This document shows, in pieces, positions 18,835 to 34,020 of a stretch of DNA of 43,779 bases. Numbering within the stretch: position 1 is the stretch's first letter; every line of letters starts with the position of its first letter. Location of the stretch: positions 1 through 43,779 of the forward strand of contig DROX01000046.1 of assembly GCA_011321725.1 (NCBI GenBank), given 5' to 3'. This DNA comes from Nitrospirota bacterium. Lineage in GTDB: Bacteria > Nitrospirota > Thermodesulfovibrionia > Thermodesulfovibrionales > JdFR-85. The notes beneath the pieces were generated by a model that worked only from the letters and a program-made list of their open reading frames with translations, made no database searches and had not been told where the DNA came from. A program made the position numbers and the translations under genes.

Positions 18835-19644
18835 ATGAGGTGTCTTAGAAGAAGGAGCATAACCGTTTTCTTGTTTTCTGTGGTCTTTTTAACAGCAGTT
18901 GTTATGTTGATAATCCGTGATACAGAGTCCTCATATGCTGTGGAGGACATTTTGAAGCTTGGCAAAAAGGTCTACGAACAGAGATGTCTCATTTGTCATG
19001 GTAAGGACGGCGACGGAAAGGGGCTTGTGGGTGTTCTGAGAAGGACGGAACTCTCTGGTCGCACAATAGAGACCCTGCCAAGGGATTTTACTATCGGTGT
19101 CTTCAGGTTCAGGTCAACCCCCACAGGCTGTCTTCCCACTGATGAGGATCTACTGAAGATAATAGACCATGGGATCAAGAGATCCTTTATGCCCTCCCAC
19201 AAAAAAGAGCTGACCCTGGAGGAAAAAAAGGCTGTCATAAGCTACATTAAGACATTTTCAGAGAGATGGGAGGAGGAAGAACCCTGTGATCCTATCCCTG
19301 TAAAGAAGCCACCATGGGTAGGAAGCCCCTCATCCATAGAGAAAGGAAAGAGGGTATATAAAGATATGAAGTGCTGGGAATGCCATGGCTATGAAGGCAG
19401 GGGCGACGGACCAAAGGCAGAGAAACTCAAGGATGACTGGGGAAAAAGGATCTGGCCCTTTGACTTTACAACTGGAGAACTCAAGAGGGGCACCTCCCCT
19501 GAGAATATCTATATCACCTTTACAACAGGCCTTGACGGTACGGGAATGCCATCCTATGAGGACTCACTAAGCGAGGAGGATAGATGGCATCTTGTTTCAT
19601 ACACACTGAAACTGATGGGCATGGTGGGAAAGAAAAAGGAGTAG
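18835..19644 (+). CDS. Dihaem cytochrome c (paralog 1)
   Basis: CLICHGKDGDGKG and CWECHGYEGRGDGPK; shared extra Cys in STPTGCLPTDED and EEEPCD. Confidence 0.93.
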   Translation: MRCLRRRSITVFLFSVVFLTAVVMLIIRDTESSYAVEDILKLGKKVYEQRCLICHGKDGDGKGLVGVLRRTELSGRTIETLPRDFTIGVFRFRSTPTGCLPTDEDLLKIIDHGIKRSFMPSHKKELTLEEKKAVISYIKTFSERWEEEEPCDPIPVKKPPWVGSPSSIEKGKRVYKDMKCWECHGYEGRGDGPKAEKLKDDWGKRIWPFDFTTGELKRGTSPENIYITFTTGLDGTGMPSYEDSLSEEDRWHLVSYTLKLMGMVGKKKE

Positions 19645-20047: not shown

Positions 20048-20851
20048 ATGGAAGGATTTAGTCTGAAAACCAAGGGCGCTGTAATTCTTTTCTTTCTGGT
20101 CTTGCTTGTCTTTGCCCTTGCCACGCTGCACACATCCGACAGTGTCTACGGCAAAGATTCGGCTATCATTGAAAAGGGCAAAAAGGTCTACAAGAAGTAC
20201 TGTATCATCTGTCATGGGGAAAAGGGTGACGGAAAGGGGCTTATAGGTATCATTCATAGGGTTGAAAAGAGTGGTCTGGTCTGGTATGTTTACCCAAGGG
20301 ACTTCACTGTAGGTGTCTTCAAATTCCGCTCCACACCAACGGGTTGTCTTCCCACAGATGACGACCTCCTGAGGACCATAACAAATGGTATCCCGAGATC
20401 GGGAATGCCATCTCACAAGGATCTATCGCTGGAGGAGAGAAAGGCTGTGATAGCCTACATCAAGACCTTTTCCAAACGGTGGGTTGAAGAAGAGCCATGT
20501 GATGAGGTGATAGAGGCCAAGATGCCCAAGTGGGTAGGAACACCGGAGTCCGTTAAAAAGGGTGAAAAGATCTATGTAAAAATGAAGTGCTGGGAATGCC
20601 ATGGCTATGAAGGTAAAGGCGATGGACCTAAATCAGATAAGCTGAAGGATGACTGGGGCGACAAGATACTCCCCTTTGACTTCACTACCGGCACACTCAA
20701 GAGGGGCTCATCACCTGAAAACATCTATATGACATACATCACCGGACTTGATGGTACTGGCATGCCTTCTTATGAAGATTCCATCCCCAACGAGGAAGAC
20801 AGGTGGCATCTCGTTTCCTACACACTTAAGCTGATGAAGAGGGTTAAATAA
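20048..20851 (+). CDS. Dihaem cytochrome c (paralog 2)
   Basis: CIICHGEKGDGKG and CWECHGYEGKGDGPK; closely similar to 18835 and 23960 ORFs. Confidence 0.93.
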   Translation: MEGFSLKTKGAVILFFLVLLVFALATLHTSDSVYGKDSAIIEKGKKVYKKYCIICHGEKGDGKGLIGIIHRVEKSGLVWYVYPRDFTVGVFKFRSTPTGCLPTDDDLLRTITNGIPRSGMPSHKDLSLEERKAVIAYIKTFSKRWVEEEPCDEVIEAKMPKWVGTPESVKKGEKIYVKMKCWECHGYEGKGDGPKSDKLKDDWGDKILPFDFTTGTLKRGSSPENIYMTYITGLDGTGMPSYEDSIPNEEDRWHLVSYTLKLMKRVK

Positions 20852-20891: not shown

Positions 20892-22739
20892 ATGTCAAGG
20901 AAGAAATTCAATAAACAGAGAAGAAAGCTGCTCAAAATACTGGGGGCTGCGAGTGTTGCCACTGGAGCTGGTGTTATGATGCCGAAGGAGGTTCTACTTG
21001 CAAGGGCAGAGAAAAAACCCAAGGGTAAATTGAGTTACGAGGTGAAACCTGGAGAACTTGATGAATACTACGGCTTCTGGAGTGGAGGACATTCAGGTGA
21101 GATCAGAATAATTGGTGTACCCTCAATGAGGGAAATCCACAGGATACCTGTATTTAACATGGATGTGGGAAGCGGCTGGGGCATTACCAATGAGAGCAAG
21201 AAGCTCCTCAGGGGAAAGTATGCAGGTGATACCCATCATGTCCATGGCTCTTATGTAAACGGTACCTATGACGGAAAATGGCTCTTTGTGAATGACAAGC
21301 TCAACAACAGGGTTGCAAGAATAAGAATAGACTATATGGAGGTGGATGCCATACTGGATATCCCGAACATACAGGGTGCACACGGACTCTTTCCCCAGAG
21401 GTACCCCAGAACGGAGTGGCTCGTCCAGAACGCTGAGTTCCAGATTCCCGTGCCTAACAATGAGTCAAATGCCAAGGCATTCAATGAGCCTCAGAAATAC
21501 TATGGGATGCACACCATTATTGATGCAGAAAGGATGGCTGTTGTCTGCCAGATAATGCTTGATGAGAACTGTGACCTTGCTGCCACGGATTATAAAGGAA
21601 AATACTCCATGTGTACATCCTACAATACCGAGAAGGGCGTGACCATCTCGGAGATGCTCGCTGCGGATCATGACTATCTGATCGTGTTCAACTGGGAAAG
21701 GATAAGAAAGGCGCTCAGGGCTGGTGACTACAAGATAGTAAATGGTGTGAAGGTCATTGATGGAAGAAAGGGTCATGACAAGCATGGCATCACACTGCGT
21801 ATACCCGTGCCAAAGAACCCTCACGGTGTAAACATCTCCCCTGATGGCAGATATGCTGTCTGTTCAGGAAAGGTCTCACCCACCTGCACAGTGGTTGATC
21901 TTGAGCTTGTGGACAAGGCCTACGCAGGAAAGATAAAACCAGAGGAATGCATAGTTGCACAGCCCTATATCGGCCTTGGACCACTGCATACCACCTTTGA
22001 TGGCCGTGGCAATGCCATAACATCCGTGTTTATTGACAGCACAAATGTAAAGTGGAATATCCAGAAGGCCATTGAGGCTGAGAAGCAGGGTGAAGAGGCA
22101 AAGAAAAAGAATCCCCATATCATTGATGTACTTGACATCCATTACCAGGTGGGACACATTATGGCCTCCATGGCAGAGACAAAGGAGGCGGATGGCAAGT
22201 GGCTTGTCTCACTGAACAAGGTCTCAAAAGACAGGTTCATAAATGTGGGGCCATTGAAACCAGAGAATGACCAGCTTGTGGACATATCAGGAGAGAAATT
22301 AAGGCTTGTTCATGATGGACCTGCCTACATTGAACCCCATGACTGTATTATTGTGAGAAGAGACATAATTGAGCCAAAGGTCAAACACCGCTATGACATG
22401 TTTGAACACCCTCTTGCTGTTACTGAAAACAAAGTGGAACGCAAGGGTAACAAGGTGATCATCAGGATGACCGCAAACGCACCTGTCTACGGCCTGCAGG
22501 AGGTAAAGCTCAAAAAAGGCGACAGGGTCACACTCATACTGACGAACCATGACGAGATAATAGACCTCTCAAACGGCTGTGCCATATCAAACTACAACAT
22601 CAACTTCGTGGTTGCTCCCTTCCAGACGAAGTCTGTCACCTTCACGGCCGATAAACCAGGTGTGTTCTGGGTCTACTGTACAAACTTCTGTCATGCCCTG
22701 CACCTTGAGATGAGGATGAGGCTTATCGTTGAACCATAA
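20892..22739 (+). CDS. nosZ: Nitrous-oxide reductase
   Basis: CuZ His blocks DTHHVHGSYVNGTYDGKWLFVNDK, QGAHG, NPHGVNISPDGRY, GLGPLHTTFDG, IEPHD; CuA YCTNFCHALHLEM; N-terminal RRKLLKILGAASVATGAG Tat-like. Confidence 0.97.
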   Translation: MSRKKFNKQRRKLLKILGAASVATGAGVMMPKEVLLARAEKKPKGKLSYEVKPGELDEYYGFWSGGHSGEIRIIGVPSMREIHRIPVFNMDVGSGWGITNESKKLLRGKYAGDTHHVHGSYVNGTYDGKWLFVNDKLNNRVARIRIDYMEVDAILDIPNIQGAHGLFPQRYPRTEWLVQNAEFQIPVPNNESNAKAFNEPQKYYGMHTIIDAERMAVVCQIMLDENCDLAATDYKGKYSMCTSYNTEKGVTISEMLAADHDYLIVFNWERIRKALRAGDYKIVNGVKVIDGRKGHDKHGITLRIPVPKNPHGVNISPDGRYAVCSGKVSPTCTVVDLELVDKAYAGKIKPEECIVAQPYIGLGPLHTTFDGRGNAITSVFIDSTNVKWNIQKAIEAEKQGEEAKKKNPHIIDVLDIHYQVGHIMASMAETKEADGKWLVSLNKVSKDRFINVGPLKPENDQLVDISGEKLRLVHDGPAYIEPHDCIIVRRDIIEPKVKHRYDMFEHPLAVTENKVERKGNKVIIRMTANAPVYGLQEVKLKKGDRVTLILTNHDEIIDLSNGCAISNYNINFVVAPFQTKSVTFTADKPGVFWVYCTNFCHALHLEMRMRLIVEP

Positions 22740-22847: not shown

Positions 22848-23927
22848 ATGAAGAGAATTGCCGTCCTGATCATTTTAGTTGCACTGTTATTGTCAGCTCC
22901 GGGCTACGGTAGCCAGTGGAAGTTCTTTGAACACAGGTATAAATACAAGCTTGGTGATGTATTAGAGGCTGACAAGTTCGTAAAAAAGGACGGCTACTGG
23001 GAAGGGTACAGGGGCAACAAGCTTGTGGGCTATGTCTTTCTCTCCAAGGACTGGACAAAAAAGCTGGTTGGATACTCAGGCAAGCACATGGAAACACTCA
23101 TCGGGTTAGATCCAAATGGTGTGATCACAGGTGTAAAGCTTATATTTCATTCCGAACCAATCGTACTGATAGGCCTGAAGGATGAGAACTATCTTGAATT
23201 CCTGAAACAGTACAGGGGGAAAAACATAAAAGAAGACCTGGCAGTGGGCAAAGGAATATCCATGGATGCAATTACAGGTGCAACGGTAACGGCTGTTGTT
23301 CAGAATGCCATAATCCTTGGAAGTGCACGTAAGGTGGCAACCGCTGCGGGAATAGCCCGGTTTGCAAGGGCAAAGATGGAAAAGAAGAAAATCAGCAGAA
23401 AATACACCCCCCTCACATGGAGAGAGCTGGTGGATCTGAAGGCTATAAGGAATATCGTTGTAAGATCAGAACAGCTGGGCATCAAGGACAAAGGTGTCTA
23501 TCTTGATCTGTATTTTGGCGTTTTAACACCTCCATCCATAGGCAGAAATGTCCTTGGAGACAAGCTATACAATGATACTATGAAGGCACTGAAGAAGGGC
23601 GAATCTGCCATATTCGTCTTTGCAAGGGGGAAAGGCTCCTTTATTGGCTCCGGTTTTGCCCGTGGCGGGATATTTGACAGATTTCATATCTCCCAGAACG
23701 ACAAAACCTTTGTGTTCAGGGATATTGACTACAGAAAGATAACAAGGATCAGGGCAAAGGGTGCGCCCGAGATAAAGGAAGGCGGCATATTCATCGTAAG
23801 GTCCGAGGATTTTGAACAGACCCTGCCCTTTGAGTTCAACCTGATCCTGACATACAGGGTTGGATCCAAAAAGGAGTTCAAGTCCTTCAGTTCCAGATAC
23901 AAAATCCCGGAGAGGTTTCTTGAGTAA
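22848..23927 (+). CDS. FMN-binding-domain protein similar to the NosR periplasmic domain
   Basis: Signal peptide; GKGISMDAITGATVTAVVQNAIILGSARKVA (FMN-threonine site); no C-terminal TM/ferredoxin part. Confidence 0.82.
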   Translation: MKRIAVLIILVALLLSAPGYGSQWKFFEHRYKYKLGDVLEADKFVKKDGYWEGYRGNKLVGYVFLSKDWTKKLVGYSGKHMETLIGLDPNGVITGVKLIFHSEPIVLIGLKDENYLEFLKQYRGKNIKEDLAVGKGISMDAITGATVTAVVQNAIILGSARKVATAAGIARFARAKMEKKKISRKYTPLTWRELVDLKAIRNIVVRSEQLGIKDKGVYLDLYFGVLTPPSIGRNVLGDKLYNDTMKALKKGESAIFVFARGKGSFIGSGFARGGIFDRFHISQNDKTFVFRDIDYRKITRIRAKGAPEIKEGGIFIVRSEDFEQTLPFEFNLILTYRVGSKKEFKSFSSRYKIPERFLE

Positions 23928-23959
23928 TCATCCTTTTTGTGGTCTTGACTGACGGAAAG

Positions 23960-24823
23960 ATGAGCAGAGGATTTATGAAAACACCTTTTCAGAACCAGGC
24001 AATATATTCAGTACTGCTCCTGACGGTTTTCTCCCTGGCGGCATTTAATGAATCTGCAAGTGCACAGGGTATAGATGCCAGGAAACTAAAAAGGGGCAGG
24101 GAGGTCTATGAGCATTACTGTGTGGTATGCCATGGTAAGAACGGAGATGGCAAAGGACACCTCGGCCTTGTCCGCTACACCATTCAAAGGTTCCACAAAC
24201 GAGGTCTCCTGTGGTATTTCCTGCCCGCGGATTTTACCCTCGGTGTCTTCAAACTCCGTTCCACGCCAACGGGCTGTCTTCCCACAGATGAGGATCTTAT
24301 GAGAACGGTAACAATGGGTATTCCCAGGTCAGGGATGCCTTCACACAAGGTTCTGCCCGAGGAAGACAGACGTGCCGTTGTAGAATACATAAAGACCTTC
24401 TCGGAGAGGTGGCAGGAGGAGGAGCCCTGTGATAGCATCTCTGTCCCCAGGAGGTATGCCTGGGTCGGAAGTGACACCTCTGCTGAGAAAGGAAAAAAAC
24501 TGTACATAAAACTGAAATGCTGGGAGTGCCACGGATATACAGGTGAAGGTAATGGCCCAAAGGCAGACAGACTGGTAGACGACCGGGGCAATAAGGTTAT
24601 CCCCCTTGACTTTACCACAGGCCTCCTGAAAAGGGGCCTGACGCCTGAAAGCCTCTACCTGACCTTCACAACAGGGTTTGATGGTTCAGGCATGCCCTCT
24701 TATGAAGACTCCTTGCCAGATGTGCAGATGAGATGGCATCTTGTCTCCTATGTACTGAAGTTGATGGGACGGACAAAGTCCATTACAATAGGAAGTGAAG
24801 GCACCTTGCATGCCGGGGAATAA
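23960..24823 (+). CDS. Dihaem cytochrome c (paralog 3)
   Basis: CVVCHGKNGDGKG and CWECHGYTGEGNGPK. Confidence 0.92.
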   Translation: MSRGFMKTPFQNQAIYSVLLLTVFSLAAFNESASAQGIDARKLKRGREVYEHYCVVCHGKNGDGKGHLGLVRYTIQRFHKRGLLWYFLPADFTLGVFKLRSTPTGCLPTDEDLMRTVTMGIPRSGMPSHKVLPEEDRRAVVEYIKTFSERWQEEEPCDSISVPRRYAWVGSDTSAEKGKKLYIKLKCWECHGYTGEGNGPKADRLVDDRGNKVIPLDFTTGLLKRGLTPESLYLTFTTGFDGSGMPSYEDSLPDVQMRWHLVSYVLKLMGRTKSITIGSEGTLHAGE

Positions 24824-24843: not shown

Positions 24844-27117
24844 ATGGATAACTTGACTCAAAATACCCTTGGTAACATCTCACAGACACCACTATGGCTT
24901 CAGGTATGGTCTCTGAAGATTGGCCATATTATTGCCTTCTCCGTCTTCCTTATACTAATAATCCTGATCATGCTATTCAAAGACAGGCTGTCCAGAAAAA
25001 AGTCTCTGCTCAGATTGATCAGATATGCGGTGCTCGGTATATCCTTTATCTATGTAGGTCTGCAGCTGAAGGCACAGCCTACCACAACCAATATCGTCAT
25101 AATTATCAACTCCCTCAAGGATCTGGAGTTTCCCCTTGGGCTCTATCTGCTGGAGCCGTACATATTCTTTTCTTTCATATTCATATCACTGACCATTATT
25201 GTCTGGGGGCGGGGTGTCTTTTGTGGATGGTTGTGCCCCTACGGAGCAATGCTTGAGCTCCTGAACAAGCTCTACGACAGGATTTTACCCAAACGGAGGC
25301 TTCCCATACCGGGAAAACTCCACTGGAAGCTTGTATACCTGAAGTACATGGTTTTCCTTCTCATCCTGGGAGCTTCCTTTTACAATTTCATCCTCTCCGA
25401 ATACATGACAGAGGTTGAACCCTTCAGAACCTTTGTACTGAAGCTTCACAGACAGTGGTATTTTGTATTGTATTTCCTCTTTCTCACCGGTCTTTCCGTG
25501 GTCTTCTACAGGGCCTTCTGCAGGTATCTCTGTCCCCTTGGTGCAGCGCTTGCCATACCATCACTGCTGAGAAGGATACCATTGATAAGGTTGAAAAGGC
25601 ATGAACTCTGCGGTACCTGCAGGATCTGTAGCAAGGCCTGCCCCTATCAGGCAATCAGGCCAGATGGCGTGATAAGCAGCACCGAGTGTCTGGACTGTCT
25701 TGACTGCCAGATCAACTTCTGGGATGAAGACATCTGTCCTGCCCTCAAAAGGAAAAAGACGTTGAAGGAGAAAAACCACAGCGCTGCAAGACCCGCAGCG
25801 ATTCTGTTACTGCTGGCTATACCCCTTTTGCTGCCATCACTGGCTACTGCAAGGACACTTGTTGTTGGCAATGGTTATAGCAGTATTTCCGATGCCCTGG
25901 AGATGGCCAGGGATGGTGACACCATAGAGGTCAGAAAGGGTGTCTATAAGGAAAGGATAAATGTAGACAAAAGGGTCTACCTTAAAGGGATTGGCAACCC
26001 TACAATAATTTCAGACAGTGGCAACCTCATTGAGGTAACAAGCCCCGGTGTGATTATAGAGGGGTTCACCCTCACCTACAGTAGCAGGGACAAGTTCAGT
26101 CTTACCTCCCAGGATACAGCTATTTATGTGAGAAAGGGAGCCAACTCGGTTGTTATAAGGAACAACAGGATTAATAAAGTACTCTTCGGCATCTGGAACT
26201 TTGAAGGCAGGGACCTGAGGATAGAGAATAACACCATAGTGGGGATAAAAGAGTTTGAGGCTGAAAAGAGGGGCAACTGCATCAACCTTACAGGTTCTCT
26301 CAGGGTCCAGATAATAAAGAACAAGCTGAGCTACTGTCGTGACGGAATATACATGGAGTTGAGTCATGATGCAGTGGTCACTGACAACGTGATAGACAAT
26401 TCACGTTACTCCATCCATACCATGTGGGTGGACAGGATAACCTGTGCAAACAACACTGCTCATGACAATCTTGTGGGGTTTGCTATTATGTATACAGACT
26501 ATCCAAAGATAAAAAACAACTTCGCCTACGGAAACAGGACCCATGGGCTTCTCCTGATCCAGGCGGTAAGGGGTGAGATCATCGGCAATACTGTCATTGC
26601 AAATACAAAGGGCATCTTCCTGTACAACTCTGTCTATAACAAAATACTTAACAATCTGGTTATGAACAACCAGGTAGGCATACATAGCTGGGGTGGTTCA
26701 CAGGACAACTTCGTAAGCAGGAACTCCGTAATCAACAACGAGATTCAGGTAAAATTCGTGGCAAGAAAGGACCAGAAATGGGACAACAACTACTGGAGCG
26801 ATTATATCGGGTGGGACATGACAGGTGACAACATAGGTGATATGCCCTACGAGTCAAACACGGTGGTTGACCACCTCTTCTGGAGATATCCCATAACCAA
26901 GATCCTTTACACAAGCCCTGCTCTTCACATCCTGTGGATGATGGAGAAACAGTTTCCCCTGCTGGAGGTGCCAAAGGTGGTTGACAATAACCCTTCCATG
27001 TTGCCCTTTCACAAGAACTGGAAGGAACTCTGGAAGAGGTACTCATCCTACAAGCCGGACAGGATATATGGTGAAATACAGAAACTGCCTCATGTACCAG
27101 GAAGAGGTGGCATCTGA
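24844..27117 (+). CDS. nosD: Fusion: NosR/NapH-like polyferredoxin membrane domain with NosD
   Basis: N-terminal GRGVFCGWLCPYGAM and FYRAFCRYLCPLGAALAIP plus CGTCRICSKACPYQAI; internal TM; then NosD beta-helix (ISDALEMARDGDTIEVRKGVYKERINVDKRVYLKGIGNPTI...). Confidence 0.9.
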   Translation: MDNLTQNTLGNISQTPLWLQVWSLKIGHIIAFSVFLILIILIMLFKDRLSRKKSLLRLIRYAVLGISFIYVGLQLKAQPTTTNIVIIINSLKDLEFPLGLYLLEPYIFFSFIFISLTIIVWGRGVFCGWLCPYGAMLELLNKLYDRILPKRRLPIPGKLHWKLVYLKYMVFLLILGASFYNFILSEYMTEVEPFRTFVLKLHRQWYFVLYFLFLTGLSVVFYRAFCRYLCPLGAALAIPSLLRRIPLIRLKRHELCGTCRICSKACPYQAIRPDGVISSTECLDCLDCQINFWDEDICPALKRKKTLKEKNHSAARPAAILLLLAIPLLLPSLATARTLVVGNGYSSISDALEMARDGDTIEVRKGVYKERINVDKRVYLKGIGNPTIISDSGNLIEVTSPGVIIEGFTLTYSSRDKFSLTSQDTAIYVRKGANSVVIRNNRINKVLFGIWNFEGRDLRIENNTIVGIKEFEAEKRGNCINLTGSLRVQIIKNKLSYCRDGIYMELSHDAVVTDNVIDNSRYSIHTMWVDRITCANNTAHDNLVGFAIMYTDYPKIKNNFAYGNRTHGLLLIQAVRGEIIGNTVIANTKGIFLYNSVYNKILNNLVMNNQVGIHSWGGSQDNFVSRNSVINNEIQVKFVARKDQKWDNNYWSDYIGWDMTGDNIGDMPYESNTVVDHLFWRYPITKILYTSPALHILWMMEKQFPLLEVPKVVDNNPSMLPFHKNWKELWKRYSSYKPDRIYGEIQKLPHVPGRGGI

Positions 27118-28013
27118 TGATAGAACTTAAAGACGTAAATAAAGTATACGGCAACCTGAAGGCCCTTGACTCTGTAAACCTGCATATCAGAAAGGGGGAG
27201 GTCCTTGGTCTCGTAGGCCCCAACGGTGCCGGCAAATCCACCATGTTGAAGATAATACTGGGAATTGCAAAGCCCACATCAGGCACAGTGCTTATAAACG
27301 GTAAGGTCCCCTCCGAGAAAGACTGGAGGGAATTCAAGGCCTCTGTGGGTTATATGCCCGAGAGGGTGGCCTTCTACGATAATCTGACCGGCATGGAGAC
27401 GTTGAAACTCTTTGCCAGGATCAAGGGCACAAAGATTGACAGAATGATAAACATGGTCAAACGGATTCTGTCGGAGGATATCCTCAAAAGAAAGGTGGGA
27501 GGCTATTCAAAGGGAATGAGACAGAGGCTTAATCTTGCACAGGCGCTGCTCAATGACCCAGACATACTGATACTTGACGAACCAACCTCAGGGCTTGACC
27601 CTGTAGGCAGCAGGGAGTTCTATCATATCCTGAAGGATATAGAGGAAAGAAAGGAGATCACCGTGATACTGTCATCCCATATCCTGGCAGAGCTTGAGGA
27701 CAAGACGGACAGGATAGCAATTATTAAAAACGGTTCTATAAAGGCTGCAGGAAGCCTGAAGGAACTCTACAGGAGGCTGAAGCTGCCCCTGAAACTGCAA
27801 ATTACCATAAAGGATAAGGATGAGGTGCTTGAAGGAATGCTCAGGGGGCTTGGCGTTTCTGACATAGGGTACAGAAACGGTTACCTCATCGCAAGTGTCC
27901 CATCTGAGAATAAATTGAGGGTGCTCTCGGCCATGCTTCAGGAAAAGGAAAGGTTCCAGGATATCACCATCAAAGAACCAAACCTTGAGGAGGTATTTTT
28001 CGGTGTACACTGA
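27117..28013 (+). CDS. nosF: ABC transporter ATP-binding protein NosF
   Basis: LVGPNGAGKSTMLKIILG, GYSKGMRQRLNLAQALL, LILDEPTSGLDP; between nosD and nosY. Confidence 0.93.
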   Translation: MIELKDVNKVYGNLKALDSVNLHIRKGEVLGLVGPNGAGKSTMLKIILGIAKPTSGTVLINGKVPSEKDWREFKASVGYMPERVAFYDNLTGMETLKLFARIKGTKIDRMINMVKRILSEDILKRKVGGYSKGMRQRLNLAQALLNDPDILILDEPTSGLDPVGSREFYHILKDIEERKEITVILSSHILAELEDKTDRIAIIKNGSIKAAGSLKELYRRLKLPLKLQITIKDKDEVLEGMLRGLGVSDIGYRNGYLIASVPSENKLRVLSAMLQEKERFQDITIKEPNLEEVFFGVH

Positions 28014-28830
28014 TGCCATGATAGCCATCGCACACAAAGAGCTTGCTGACAAGCTGAAAAGCAGGTGGGTTATAGTCATCGCCCTGGGATTTGCTGTGTT
28101 CACTGTAGTTATTGCCTACTTCGGTGGTGCAACTGCCGGGGTTACAGGTTTCAGGAGGATGGATGCCACCATCGCAAGCCTTACAAGCCTTGTAACCTAC
28201 TTTATACCCATACTTGCCCTTACCCTTGGTGGAGGGATAATAGCAGATGAAAGGGACCGCGGCACCCTTGATCTGTTCCTCTCCTCTCCCCTTTCCGTGG
28301 GTGAGTTCATCGCAGGAAAGTTCTGGGGTCTCTTTTTCGCTCTCACCCTCTCCACATTAGCAGGCTTTGGCATCTCAGGTATTCTGCTGATTACCAAGCT
28401 CGGCACGGGAACACTGGGAAGTTATATTCTCTTTATCATCAACTCCATGGTCCTTGGAGTAATCTTTCTGAGCATCTCCTTCCTCATCTCTGTACTCTTT
28501 TATGAACGCTCCCGTGTTATTGCTGTCACCGTCTTCGTCTGGCTCTTCTTCACGATACTCTATGACCTTGGAGTAATCGGACTGCTTGTCACCACAAAGG
28601 GTGAGATCAGTACAGGTATCGTATCAATGCTTCTCATGCTGAATCCCGTGGACATCTACAGGACCCTGAACTTCCTGTCCATTGGAGAGTTCTCGGTCGT
28701 ACTGGGGCTTGCATCGGTAGAGTTTCCATCATATATGAGACCTGTTCTGCTATGGGGAGTCAGTTTCCTGTGGATTGTTCTGCCTCTTGTGCTTAGTTAT
28801 TATCTCTTTAAAAGAAGATATGTGTCTTAA
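28003..28830 (+). CDS. nosY: ABC transporter permease NosY
   Basis: AIAHKELADKLKSRWVIVIALGF, DERDRGTLDLFLSSPLSVGEFIAGKF; GTG start likely. Confidence 0.92.
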   Translation: MYTDAMIAIAHKELADKLKSRWVIVIALGFAVFTVVIAYFGGATAGVTGFRRMDATIASLTSLVTYFIPILALTLGGGIIADERDRGTLDLFLSSPLSVGEFIAGKFWGLFFALTLSTLAGFGISGILLITKLGTGTLGSYILFIINSMVLGVIFLSISFLISVLFYERSRVIAVTVFVWLFFTILYDLGVIGLLVTTKGEISTGIVSMLLMLNPVDIYRTLNFLSIGEFSVVLGLASVEFPSYMRPVLLWGVSFLWIVLPLVLSYYLFKRRYVS

Positions 28831-28851: not shown

Positions 28852-30294
28852 ATGATGAGACTTTTGAACTGGGTTCTGTCACTTACATTTCTTTTGCTTT
28901 TCTTCAGCCTGGCAAATGGATACGAAACAGTAGCAGTAAAAAATGGTGCCACTTTAAAGGGTACGGTTGTCTTCACGGGCACTATCCCTCCCCAAGGCAA
29001 GATATCCATTGACAGGGATGTGGATTACTGTGGAAAGGAACTGAAGACGGATAAATTCATCATCTCAGATCATAGGGTAAAGAACGTGGTGGTCTGGATA
29101 GAGGGCATAGGGAAAGGCAAGGCTGTACCCAAAAAGGATGTACCCATCATTATAAAGAAATGCAGGGTGGAACCGCTGGTTAATATCGGTTTTGTTGGTG
29201 GAAATTTTCTCCTGAGAAATGACGACGATATACTCCACACCCTTCAGCTTAAACTCTGGCTTGAGTATCAGCGTCATGTCTCAGCAAGGCCCTTAAAATA
29301 CGGAGCCACAATCTATAATGTGGCCCTTCCGGTGAAAGGGCTTGAGGTCAGGAAACCCATAAAGAGATACCACAGGTTCTCAAAGGACACGGGGGTCATT
29401 AGGATAACGTCAAACACCCATACCTGGATCAGGGGATATATATTTGTATTTGATCACCCCTATGCAGCTGTTACGGACGAGAAAGGCACATTTGTAATAA
29501 CTGACCTTCCACCTGGTGAATATACACTCAAGATATGGCATGAAGGTTTCGGACTCAAAGAAAAGAGGATATCCGTCAAGCCTGGTGAGACAAAGGAGAT
29601 AGAGATTGATCTCAAGGATCTGAAAAAGGCTGAAACAGCTGCCAGCCCTTCTGTCAGGTTCCTTGCCACAAGGTATGACTTCGGTACCATCAAGAAGGGT
29701 GAGTCGGTAACACATGAATTTGCACTTCTCAACAAAGGAAAGGGAACACTCAGGATAGTGGAGCTGATACCGGCATGAAGGGCATGTACGAGCGCATCTG
29801 CCAGTTCGGCAGAGATACCACCTGGCGGAAAGGCAATGGTGAAGGTAACATACGATTCAGGTAGTGACCCTGTTCTGCGGACTGGTGAGCGGGTCTTCAA
29901 GAGCGTTGAGGTATGGACAAATGACCCAAAAAAGAGGATGGTCCTCCTAAGCCTTCAGGGCGTAGTAGTTGCAGCAGGGATACCCAGGATCGTGTTTCCT
30001 GAAACAACCTTTGATTTTGGCAGTGTTAGAGAAGGTGAGAAGATAAGGCATCGTTTTTACTTCAGGAACAATGGCACAGATGTCCTGCGAATAGGTGGCG
30101 TTGTGCCTTCCTGAAAGAGGGCCACGACAGCCTCTGTCAGTTCGGCAGAGATAAAGCCAGGCGGTGAAGGATACATAGAGGTGACAGTGGATACCACCGG
30201 CTCGTCGGGAAGGATCAGCAAGGCCTTTGAGATTACAACCAATGACCCTGAGAATGAATCAATAATACTAACTGTTTTTGGAGAGGTAAAGTAA
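28852..30294 (+). CDS. Candidate selenoprotein: carboxypeptidase-regulatory/cupredoxin-like N-terminus plus two DUF1573-like repeats, TGA (Sec) at 29776-29778 and 30112-30114
   Basis: ORF-track pieces 28849-29778 and 29836-30114 and the tail to TAA 30292-30294 are in one frame, interrupted only by two TGA codons at the equivalent DUF1573 Cys site (IPA-U-RACTSASASSAEIPPGG; VPS-U-KRATTASVSSAEIKPGG); RBS GGAGG at 28841. Confidence 0.85.
29797..29813 (+). promoter_or_regulatory. Putative bacterial SECIS hairpin 1
   Basis: TCTGCC-AGTTC-GGCAGA; apical loop starts 24 nt after the TGA; G in position 2 of the loop. Confidence 0.75.
30132..30150 (+). promoter_or_regulatory. Putative bacterial SECIS hairpin 2
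   Basis: CTCTGTC-AGTTC-GGCAGAG (one U-G pair); apical loop starts 24 nt after the TGA; same loop as hairpin 1. Confidence 0.75.
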
Positions 30295-30320: not shown

Positions 30321-31337
30321 ATGATTAACAGAAGAGAATTTCTTGAACTCCTATTGCTCACCTCGGGATATACACTTCTGGGAAGCAGGCTTTCCCTTGC
30401 CTCACCGATCCAGGATATTGAGGTAAGCGAGGTGGATCTAAATATCACCTATGTAACAGAGATACTGAAGCCACCTAAGAGAAGCAATGTGGACATATGG
30501 ATACCTGTACCGCAGACTGACCAGGAACAGGAGATCACGGGACTGAAGGTGGAGTCACCACTGCCCTACAGGTTCACCACAGAACCGGTATGGAAAAACA
30601 GGATGGTCTATATAAATACAGAAAGACTAAACCCCGGCGACAGGATCTTGATGCATTACAGGATAAAAAGAAAGGCCACAGGTGTAATTGTGGACAGACA
30701 AAGAGACCCTTCACGTTATCTTGAACCCTCGGAATGGGAAAAATGGGATGAAAAGATATCAGCATTTGTAGACAAGCTTACCGCCGGCGATGACAATCCG
30801 GTAGAGATTGCCAGAAAGGTCTATAATGCCCTCATTGAAAGGCTCAGGTATATACACGAGGTCTGCGGCAGGGGTGTGAGTACCATCACCTTTGAAGAGA
30901 AGGTGGGCAGGTGTGATGAATACCATGCGCTCTTCAGAAGCATGATGATGTACAGAAAGATCCCCGTAAGCTGGGAGCAGGGGATGGCCCTGCCCTACCC
31001 CTCTGAGCTGAAAAAGGAGGGCCAGTTTGAGGCTGATTGTATAAATGCCCACAGCTGGGTCAGGTTCTATATTGGTGACGGCAGGTGGTTCCCTGTTGAT
31101 GTCTCCGAGGCAGACAGAAGACCGGCACTGAAGGAGTTCTATTTCGGAAGACTCCTTCCCGACAGGATCAAGCTATCAAACGGAAGAGGGTTTACCCTTG
31201 CTCCGCCACAGAGAGGGATAATAAACACCTTTGCCTACACATATATTGAGGCAGGTGGGATACCTGCAATATATGGTCATAATTACCGTAACAGGATCCA
31301 CTACAAACTTATTGATATGAGAAGGGAGAAACAATGA
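30321..31337 (+). CDS. Transglutaminase-like domain protein, exported (Tat-like signal)
   Basis: INRREFLELLLLTSG; GRCDEYHALFRSMMMYRKIPVSWEQG and NAHSWVRFYIGDGRWFPVDVSEA. Confidence 0.82.
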   Translation: MINRREFLELLLLTSGYTLLGSRLSLASPIQDIEVSEVDLNITYVTEILKPPKRSNVDIWIPVPQTDQEQEITGLKVESPLPYRFTTEPVWKNRMVYINTERLNPGDRILMHYRIKRKATGVIVDRQRDPSRYLEPSEWEKWDEKISAFVDKLTAGDDNPVEIARKVYNALIERLRYIHEVCGRGVSTITFEEKVGRCDEYHALFRSMMMYRKIPVSWEQGMALPYPSELKKEGQFEADCINAHSWVRFYIGDGRWFPVDVSEADRRPALKEFYFGRLLPDRIKLSNGRGFTLAPPQRGIINTFAYTYIEAGGIPAIYGHNYRNRIHYKLIDMRREKQ

Positions 31338-31852
31338 AAGCACTGGAGAGACACATATTGTTTTCCCTCTGTTCCTTCCTGTTTCTTTATCTACTCCTCT
31401 CTGCATCTGTTGCCTTCTCTGGAGAGGGTGTGAAGGTAGGAGAGCCGGTGCCCACCTTTGTCCTTATTGACGACAAGGGCAAACCAAGGGATTTCGGCGA
31501 GCTCATTGACAGACCCACCATCATATACTTTACCCACAACTCCTGCTGGTACTGTGAACAGATAATACATGAACTGAAGAGGGCAGAGGCAAAATTCGGA
31601 AAGAAAAACCTCAGGATAATAGGCATCAATGTCATGGCAACCGACGAGGAGCTTGTCAAGGCATACAAGGAAGAGCTTGACTTCACCTTTCCCATGTTCG
31701 CAGGCAACAGGGAGGATGTGCTCAGGACATACAGGATAAACTATGTTCCTGTACTGGTATTTATTGATGCAAAGAGAATAGTAAGAAAGGTGGTGGGGCA
31801 CTACATACATGAACCTGAACTCTTCAAGACAATAAGGGAAATCAGCAAATAG
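31334..31852 (+). CDS. TlpA/redoxin-like thioredoxin-fold protein (CWYC)
   Basis: Signal peptide; IIYFTHNSCWYCEQIIHELKRAEAKFG; NYVPVLVFID. Confidence 0.88.
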   Translation: MKALERHILFSLCSFLFLYLLLSASVAFSGEGVKVGEPVPTFVLIDDKGKPRDFGELIDRPTIIYFTHNSCWYCEQIIHELKRAEAKFGKKNLRIIGINVMATDEELVKAYKEELDFTFPMFAGNREDVLRTYRINYVPVLVFIDAKRIVRKVVGHYIHEPELFKTIREISK

Positions 31853-31915
31853 GAAGGTTATGCACTTAAACGGGGCATGCTGTCCCGTGAAAAAACATTT
31901 ACTAAGGAGGTACAT

Positions 31916-32698
31916 ATGAAAAGGATAGCCTTGATCACGTTGGCTCTGCTATTTTCACTGGTCAACCTCTCACATGCAGCCAGATACAAGGTTGTGGAGG
32001 TGAAAAACGGCGGAACCATCAAAGGAAAGGTCAAAACCGCGGTCTCGGTAAAGGACCCCACAATACCAATCAATATCTCTCCAAAGGAAAAACCTGAGGA
32101 TGCAAAAAAGATCAGGGAGGTCTGCGGAACAAGCCAGAAGGCAAACATGTATCTTGTTTCCCCTGCTGGAGAGGTGAAGAATGTCTTTGTTATAGTGTTA
32201 GGGGTTAAACAGGGAAAGGCTGCTCCAAAAAAGGACCTTGTTATTGACAACACTAAATGTGCCTTTGACCCCCTTGTAGGGATCGCCTATGTGAAGTCAA
32301 AGTATGTGATTAAGAACAGCGACCCCATACTCCATAATACATCCCTTGGCAAGATAGTAAGAAAGGGCGTAAGAAGGACGGTCTATAATCTTGCCCTACC
32401 TCACAAGGGCCAGATAATAAAGAAAAAGAACAGGGTATCAGGGCTGATTGATGTCAAGTGTGATGCCCACTCATGGATGAGGGCCTATGTATACTCCTCC
32501 AAACATCCCTATGTGGCAATAACAGACGAAAAAGGCAACTTTGAGATAAAGGACCTCCCACCTGGCAAATACAAGGTCAAATTCTGGCACGAGGGCTTCC
32601 AGGAAGTGGTTAAGGAGATAGAGGTAAAGCCAGGTGTGAATACCCTGAACGTGACATTTACAAAGACAAGAAAACCTGCCTTTATGAGTCGTCTGTAA
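31916..32698 (+). CDS. Carboxypeptidase-regulatory/cupredoxin-like exported protein (paralog of the selenoprotein N-terminus)
   Basis: VVEVKNGGTIKGKV; KCDAHSWMRAYVYSSKHPYVAITDEKGNFEIKDLPPGKYKVKFWHEGF parallels 28852 ORF ...YAAVTDEKGTFVITDLPPGEYTLKIWHEGF. Confidence 0.8.
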   Translation: MKRIALITLALLFSLVNLSHAARYKVVEVKNGGTIKGKVKTAVSVKDPTIPINISPKEKPEDAKKIREVCGTSQKANMYLVSPAGEVKNVFVIVLGVKQGKAAPKKDLVIDNTKCAFDPLVGIAYVKSKYVIKNSDPILHNTSLGKIVRKGVRRTVYNLALPHKGQIIKKKNRVSGLIDVKCDAHSWMRAYVYSSKHPYVAITDEKGNFEIKDLPPGKYKVKFWHEGFQEVVKEIEVKPGVNTLNVTFTKTRKPAFMSRL

Positions 32699-32763: not shown

Positions 32764-33264
32764 ATGGAAAGGTCTACTATGGTGAAACCATACATCCTGG
32801 TATATACATTGCTGCTGATCTTTCTTTCAGGTTGTTCAAGTAAAGAAGTGGCCAAACCGCCACCTGTGGAATTGAACAGGAAGGACAGTTGCAGGATCTG
32901 TGGCATGATAATCGTTGATTTCCCGGGTCCAAAGGCACAGATACACTACAGGGATGGAAGAATTGACAAGTTCTGTAGTGTCTATGAGATGTTGACCTAC
33001 TACACTCAACCGGACAGACCAGGAGGAATCCTGGCCATATATGTTAACGACATGTCAGAGGCTGATTGGAAAAAACCCGTTGACCACTGGATTGATGCTG
33101 AGACAGCCTTTTATGTCTATGACCCTGATATATCTGGAGCAATGGGCACAGAGATCGTCCCCTTTCGGGACAGGATATCTGCGGAGAGATTCATGAAGAA
33201 ACACGGTGGAAGGATTGTACGATTCAAGGAGATAACGCCAGAGATGCTGGAGCCCAGGCTATGA
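32764..33264 (+). CDS. nosL: NosL-like lipoprotein
   Basis: Lipobox LSGCSS; DSCRICGMIIVDFPGPKAQIHYRDGRIDKFCSVYEML. Confidence 0.9.
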   Translation: MERSTMVKPYILVYTLLLIFLSGCSSKEVAKPPPVELNRKDSCRICGMIIVDFPGPKAQIHYRDGRIDKFCSVYEMLTYYTQPDRPGGILAIYVNDMSEADWKKPVDHWIDAETAFYVYDPDISGAMGTEIVPFRDRISAERFMKKHGGRIVRFKEITPEMLEPRL

Positions 33265-33542
33265 AAAGAATCTTTATTGCACTAATAGTCCTGAATACCC
33301 TTGCTGTGCTTGTCCTTGCACTTGATTCAATTACCGGGAGAGACTACTCAAGGGTGGCGGAATTCCAGAGACTCACTGCAGGGTTTGGTCTTGGTGCGTC
33401 AGTCAATCCCAGATGGGGATTCAACACCTTTGACCCCAGGATTGACATAGTTGAGGAGACCAACCTCTATCCCATTGCAGGTGGCTATATATATTCCCCT
33501 TCAAGAGGCCTGACCGTCAGTGAATTCAGCGAGACTTTTTAG
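33261..33542 (+). CDS. Small membrane-anchored hypothetical protein between NosL paralogs
   Basis: 93 aa; N-terminal TM; overlaps both neighbours. Confidence 0.65.
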   Translation: MKRIFIALIVLNTLAVLVLALDSITGRDYSRVAEFQRLTAGFGLGASVNPRWGFNTFDPRIDIVEETNLYPIAGGYIYSPSRGLTVSEFSETF

Positions 33543-34020
33543 TATAATAGCCTTTATATTTACTGTACTCCTTATCTCCTGCACAGACAGGCAGGGCAAT
33601 GGCCCGTTTGAACATCCCTTCAAAAATCCACCCTCCTTCACCAACCATAAAAGGTGTGATAACTGCGGGATGGACAGGAACAGGTTCGCAAGGACACGCT
33701 ATGTCTTTGACTCAGGGAAGGGAAGGTTTTACACCTGCTCAATCGCCTGTCTGGTAATACTCAGTGAGAAGATGCATCTCACACCGAAGAATGTCAGGGT
33801 GGCAGAGTACATCAACCCCTCTAACATGATAGATGCCCTTAAGGCGGTCTATGTGATTGGCTCAAAGGCGCGAGGAACAATGACCAGGACAAGCAAGATA
33901 GCCTTCTCCTCAAAGAAACAGGCGGAAAGGTTTGTCTCAAAATATGGAGGCAGGCTTGCTACATTTGCTGAGGCGCTCCAGGAAACACGTCAGGAGATAC
34001 TCAAGGAGATACAAAGATGA
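33520..34020 (+). CDS. Second NosL-family protein
   Basis: Lipobox-like LLISCTD; KRCDNCGMDRNRFARTRYVFDSGKGRFYTCSIACLVI. Confidence 0.82.
   Translation: MNSARLFSIIAFIFTVLLISCTDRQGNGPFEHPFKNPPSFTNHKRCDNCGMDRNRFARTRYVFDSGKGRFYTCSIACLVILSEKMHLTPKNVRVAEYINPSNMIDALKAVYVIGSKARGTMTRTSKIAFSSKKQAERFVSKYGGRLATFAEALQETRQEILKEIQR

Follow-up and report, generated by a model that had tools for sequence, protein, structure and literature searches.

Gene organization of the nos locus

The window, i.e. the whole stretch of DNA that was analysed (43,779 nucleotides, contig DROX01000046.1 of a Nitrospirota bacterium), carries a nos cluster. The gene under study (28852-30294), predicted to encode a protein with two selenocysteine (Sec, U) residues, had been placed inside such a cluster by an earlier note on this DNA, and this placement is borne out by nosZ, NosR/NosD, nosF, and nosY upstream and by NosL downstream. 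The neighbouring genes are as follows.

20892-22739, + strand: nosZ, N2O reductase, TAT type (TIGR04244, 830 bits)
24844-27117, + strand: NosR C-terminal ferredoxin part fused to NosD (TIGR04247, 357 bits; NF046105, model positions 386-678)
27117-28013, + strand: nosF, ABC ATPase (PF00005; named by its position next to nosD and nosY)
27985-28830, + strand: nosY, ABC permease (PF12679; named by position)
30321-31337, + strand: transglutaminase-like protein, conserved next gene (PF01841; synteny)
31334-31852, + strand: TlpA/ResA-like thioredoxin with CxxC, candidate redox partner (PF00578, NF002854; conserved in synteny)
31877-32698, + strand: paralog of the N-terminal domain in which the H..CxxHxxM copper-type ligands are intact (homology, column counts)
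32764-33264, + strand: NosL copper chaperone (PF05573, 169 bits)
33520-34020, + strand: second NosL-like protein (PF05573, 58 bits)

NosR is split, with its N-terminal part as a separate gene (22848-23927) and its C-terminal ferredoxin part joined with NosD in one 757-aa frame. The cluster has two different NosL genes, and three similar-looking c-type cytochrome-like genes were noticed by eye around nosZ (18835-19644, 20048-20851, and 23939-24823).

The order nosY, Sec protein, transglutaminase, thioredoxin, (paralog), nosL recurs in Nitrospirota and in one Aquificaceae MAG; as far as the contigs reach, it is seen in most of the loci L052-L065 and in the Aquificaceae locus (L068). The latter shares the nos layout and has the Sec domain as a separate, stand-alone DUF1573 gene of the UxxC type, which suggests horizontal transfer or a binning error. 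Every UxxC locus examined sits in a nos neighbourhood, and when UGC loci were examined for the window genes, none of these nos neighbours was found there.

Reading frame and domain structure

When TGA is read as a residue, the frame at 28852-30294 (+) is translated into 480 aa and ends at TAA 30292-30294, in agreement with the open frame described earlier. TGA occurs in frame just twice, as codon 309 (29776-29778) and as codon 421 (30112-30114). Pfam DUF1573 (PF07610) matches two stretches of the 480-aa protein with 128 bits against a gathering cut-off of 26.1, and the TGAs lie at equivalent sites of these two domains, so that their proposed location at the same position of two successive repeats is confirmed. 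The motif is URACT (U-x-x-C-T) in repeat 1 and UKRAT (U-x-x-A-T) in repeat 2, in each case with one residue more than the usual (U/C)GCT. The earlier note had assigned the TGAs to the conserved Cys of a CGCT-type motif; the Cys column holds, with only U or C in it, but the CGCT wording does not, since the motifs are UxxCT and UxxAT. The features of the gene are listed below.

28852-30294, + strand: entire gene, for a probably exported protein of 480 aa in which both UGAs are read as Sec (orthologs L052-L056 with the same two TGAs)
28852-28920, + strand: probable signal peptide, residues 1-23 (hydrophobic N-terminus, then conserved Y24; judged by eye)
28921-29622, + strand: N-terminal domain, residues 24-257, cupredoxin-like fold with a CarboxypepD_reg-type C-terminal part (AF2, Foldseek, PF13620)
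29668-29967, + strand: DUF1573/OS_HP2 domain 1 with the U309-x-x-C312 motif (domain profile searches)
29776-29778, + strand: UGA codon 1, predicted Sec309 (TGA in 6/6 two-Sec orthologs; U/C-only column)
29796-29814, + strand: putative bSECIS hairpin 1, 6-bp stem, loop AGUUC (29803-29807), 24 nt after the UGA, -9.4 kcal/mol
29998-30291, + strand: DUF1573/OS_HP2 domain 2 with the U421-x-x-A motif, lacking the partner Cys (domain profile searches)
30112-30114, + strand: UGA codon 2, predicted Sec421 (TGA in 6/6 two-Sec orthologs)
30132-30150, + strand: putative bSECIS hairpin 2, 7-bp stem, loop AGUUC (30139-30143), 24 nt after the UGA, -8.5 kcal/mol as an isolated hairpin

The N-terminal domain alone gave an AF2 model with pLDDT 93 and pTM 0.89, and the best PDB matches of this model in Foldseek are CuA domains, amicyanin, and purple cupredoxin (TM up to 0.70 by target, E about 3e-4 to 2e-3). 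Therefore, the predicted model has a cupredoxin fold. The type-1 ligand set (His, Cys, His, Met) is incomplete: His129 and His190 are invariant, and residue 187 is Ser in 18/18 sequences. Free-standing paralogs of the type encoded at 31877-32698 have Cys at the Ser187 site in 16/16 cases, plus His and Met, so that all four ligands are kept. For the mature protein, AlphaFold gave pLDDT 87 and pTM 0.51; since pTM is at this level, the model does not fix the placement of the domains and hence the Sec-Sec and Sec-His distances. As a whole, the fold resembles mostly generic Ig/ASH repeats in the PDB, with no functional lead.

Conservation of the two TGA codons

In a homolog search of 61 whole genomes for the two-TGA protein, both TGAs were found to be kept in five further genomes at 55-60% amino-acid identity, and many others have one TGA in a DUF1573 domain. 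The two-TGA counterparts among GTDB genomes are from Thermodesulfovibrio sp. and Nitrospirota/Nitrospirae MAGs. With the window gene included, both codons are TGA in 6/6 two-Sec orthologs. Chance TGAs are excluded because the five other genomes keep both of them at such a level of identity. The pN/pS ratio is about equal before (0.33), between (0.36), and after (0.36) the TGAs and, together with the conservation in six genomes, it rules out a nonsense mutation, a sequencing error, or a pseudogene.

The key column was compared in 83 distinct DUF1573 domains, which were gathered by homology to the window protein (from a search of the phylum and from other loci), so that the proportions of U and C are not a census and it is their exclusivity that is informative: 60 domains have TGA there, the other 23 have a Cys codon, and no further residue occurs. 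None of the 83 domains has a further in-frame TGA. Thus, only U or C occurs at the sites corresponding to residues 309 and 421 in the homologs compared, and not the random stops or frameshifts that would have spoken against recoding.

bSECIS hairpins

According to the published model, a bSECIS element has a loop of 3-9 nt with a G in the first two loop positions, a stem of 4-16 bp, a distance of 16-37 nt from the UGA, and an energy of at most -7.5 kcal/mol (PMC13188914). Both window hairpins satisfy this model in loop, stem, spacing, and energy. The spacing between UGA and hairpin is 24 nt in the window protein and 21 nt in its UGC relatives, with a stem of up to 7 bp and the loop AGUUC(A). 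When the two window hairpins were folded as single sequences, the result was not significant, and at the second UGA a 50-nt segment prefers another fold, which competes with the bSECIS hairpin. Therefore, the case for the hairpins rests on covariation. Among 23 distinct UGC hairpins, changes on both sides occur at 7/7 pairs and 94% of the cells pair; among 18 hairpins with a five-base loop (17 of the UxxC/UxxA type and one from a UGC gene), 5/7 pairs covary. In either set, the covariation score was reached by 0/500 shuffles, and it collapsed when the partners were slid.

On average, U genes form 6.7/7 stem pairs and Cys genes 4.2/7, the latter being an optimistic background since the position and size of the loop were allowed to float. 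Against shuffles of synonymous codons, U genes had a mean z of -1.8 and Cys genes one of +0.07, which makes a chance hairpin arising from coding constraint unlikely. A scan of the window with Rfam returned no matches, which says nothing on bSECIS. Overall, each UGA is followed by a covarying element that fits the published model and is missing from the Cys homologs; a bSECIS search had been suggested by the earlier note.

Sec machinery and genetic code

The source genome (G000, 96% complete) has the complete set of Sec genes that had been named for inspection (selA, selB, selD, and tRNA-Sec): a tRNA-Sec with anticodon TCA (75 bits), SelB (400 bits), SelA as two pieces (581 and 84 bits), one of them at a contig end, and SelD with one in-frame TGA (L048, G000:C65:3366-4277). 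With this TGA, SelD is probably a selenoprotein in its own right. The genome also has a second DUF1573 protein, with one Sec and of the UGC type (L125, G000:C235:1000-3000, at about 510-845), whose close relatives carry CxxCH motifs after the domain.

Among 396 genomes of the phylum, SelB is present in 81/87 genomes with a TGA-form DUF1573 and in 5/22 with only other (Cys) forms (Fisher p 6e-11, uncorrected for the relatedness of the genomes). The standard code applies to the window since TGA is the stop codon of 7/13 other genes checked in it, and genome-wide reassignment of UGA to another amino acid is thereby ruled out.

Taken together, both UGAs are predicted with near certainty to encode Sec. 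The view that UGA recoding is likelier than two nonsense mutations is strongly supported by the orthologs, the U/C column, the covarying bSECIS hairpins, and the Sec machinery. That the UGAs are stops or nonsense mutations, in a pseudogene or a truncated 308-aa protein, or are reassigned genome-wide, is hardly credible: standard gene callers would indeed cut the gene short at the first UGA (29778), but six genomes keep both UGAs, with purifying selection acting downstream of them, the column and the hairpin covariation speak for Sec, neighbouring genes use UGA as an ordinary stop, and the genome has the full Sec machinery.

Relationship with SCO1/SenC

TlpA and Sco proteins assist the CuA assembly of oxidases. 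SenC, in particular, has been implicated in the CuA maturation of an oxidase (PMC6530538). The window protein has no SCO1-SenC domain (PF02630, CxxxC) according to Pfam. Fusions of Sco with a Sec-containing DUF1573 domain occur as one protein in three lineages, i.e. L065 (= G043), L088 (G156), and L087 (G307), and they occupy the same slot, between nosY and the transglutaminase-like gene. No description of SCO1/SenC fused to a Sec-containing DUF1573 was found in the literature searched. In L062-L064, the slot is taken by a SCO1/SenC-like gene with no DUF1573, identified by Pfam in L062 and by sequence likeness in L063 and L064.

SCO1/SenC was not detected in G000 at E 1e-6, an absence that proves little since Sco is also missing from most relatives. 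In the nos locus of G007, SCO1/SenC stands beside a one-Sec DUF1573 protein, and since this genome has both, the idea that the Sec protein strictly replaces Sco is weakened.

Proposed function

Because of the Sco fusions, the Sco gene in the slot where the Sec domain is lacking, and the lack of detectable Sco here, the protein is proposed to be an exported two-Sec protein that acts as a Sec-based, Sco-like copper/thiol assembly factor for NosZ; with the function included, this statement as a whole stands at about an even chance. The mechanism can be potentially described as follows. The UGAs would be decoded as Sec by the genome's own SelA, SelB, SelD, and tRNA-Sec, each under its own bSECIS hairpin. 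The protein would then be exported, and the mature form would consist of the cupredoxin-like N domain and two Ig-like DUF1573 domains, of which domain 1 would offer a Sec-x-x-Cys redox or metal pair and domain 2 a lone Sec. In the periplasm, it may serve as a NosZ assembly factor that takes over the task of, or acts together with, a Sco/SenC metallochaperone and thiol-disulfide reductase. Copper may be bound through selenolate, Cys, or His, or else the CuA cysteines of NosZ may be kept reduced; thiol-selenol exchange could take place, with recycling by the neighbouring TlpA-like thioredoxin.

A function in copper/CuA assembly, as judged from the sequence data, is evenly balanced. It is favoured by the fixed nos slot, the three fusions of Sco with DUF1573(U), a Sco gene as the sole occupant of that slot in L062-L064, and the cupredoxin-like fold of the N domain; against it, the N domain lacks the copper-ligand Cys of the paralog, and Sec-DUF1573 proteins of the UGC type also occur outside nos loci. 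Therefore, the DUF1573 Sec domain is not inherently a NosZ factor. More tentatively, Sec309/Cys312 and Sec421 might bind or reduce at copper and substitute for Sco in the assembly of the CuA site of NosZ, in which case bacterial N2O reduction in these Nitrospirota would depend on selenium.

It is also conceivable, though somewhat doubtful, that the protein is a thiol/selenol redox enzyme that handles no copper and provides protection from peroxide or NO, or isomerizes disulfides in periplasmic Nos proteins. In favour of this, UxxC is a classical redox motif, the TlpA/ResA-like thioredoxin is a fixed neighbour, and bacterial selenoproteins are mostly regarded as redox proteins (PMC9312934). However, a resolving Cys is missing from domain 2 (UxxA/S in 6/6), and the Sco fusion as well as the cupredoxin-like N domain point to copper. 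It is unlikely that the Sec domains have a structural or electron-transfer role in which they dock NosZ or the cytochromes, with Sec only as a metal or haem ligand: the several c-type cytochrome-like genes seen by eye around nosZ and the CxxCH motifs after the domain in UGC relatives would agree with such a role, but the window protein has no CxxCH and the Sco fusion would be left unexplained.

NosZ is the main biological sink of N2O, one of the major greenhouse gases, and the building of the NosZ copper sites is only partly known. If the assembly-factor proposal is true, a Sec-containing protein takes part in copper-site assembly, and selenium supply could limit N2O reduction in some Nitrospirota. 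Through the Sco fusion, the DUF1573 selenoprotein family, so far uncharacterised, also gains a functional lead.

Comparison with known systems

Other double selenoproteins, such as MbdU (NF045648), TsoB (NF045694), and a metal-binding protein (NF041115), likewise have two Sec per chain, and some double selenoproteins bear names implying metal binding (PMC13188914). These three families are unrelated to the window protein, and no link with N2O reduction is stated for them in PMC13188914. The NosZ maturation factors NosL, NosD, and NosFY share the operon with the Sec protein, but there is no relation in sequence or domains; NosL is a Cu(I) chaperone serving CuZ assembly (PMC6530538). SCO1/SenC (PF02630) shares the gene slot, is fused to Sec-DUF1573 in three lineages, and comprises likewise exported thiol/copper proteins with CxxxC; however, SCO1/SenC has a thioredoxin fold and DUF1573 is Ig-like, and the likeness is functional only.

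The closest system is OS_HP2, a DUF1573 selenoprotein family believed to have been first described in a paper of 2007. OS_HP2 (pfam07610) is a listed selenoprotein with the motif UxC (PMC2398784), given elsewhere as UGC with one Sec (PMC9312934, PMC13188914). The earlier note knew of no described DUF1573 selenoprotein; this is ruled out by the literature on OS_HP2/DUF1573 (PMC2398784, PMC9312934, PMC13188914; NF041425). NCBIfam NF041425 matches the whole window protein at 142.1 bits, and the domains taken singly at 62 and 74 bits, under the cut-off of 100. Thus, the protein belongs to the family by its whole-protein score and departs from it in the single-Sec UGC/UxC motif, having two Sec in UxxC and UxxA.

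The window protein and OS_HP2 share the domain, the Cys column in which Sec stands, a bSECIS immediately downstream, and the existence of Cys homologs. They differ in that the known form has one Sec in UGC (UxC), whereas the window protein has two in a tandem of UxxC and UxxA/S, with a cupredoxin-like N-terminus and a nos context. No mention of a two-Sec, UxxC, or nos-linked DUF1573 protein was found in two reviews or the open-licence literature searched. In a tree of 83 domains, built on about 100 columns and with many deep forks unsupported either way, the UxxC and UxxA/S domains group in a single clade (100/100) adjoining the UGC domains, and the second domains of the two-Sec proteins form one clade (100/92). 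Therefore, a single lineage with a one-residue insertion may have arisen among UGC selenoproteins and then been duplicated. Overall, it appears that the UxxC/UxxA-S subclade, seen only in nos loci, and the three Sco-DUF1573(Sec) fusions are new, as is the tandem two-Sec protein with a cupredoxin-fold N-terminus.
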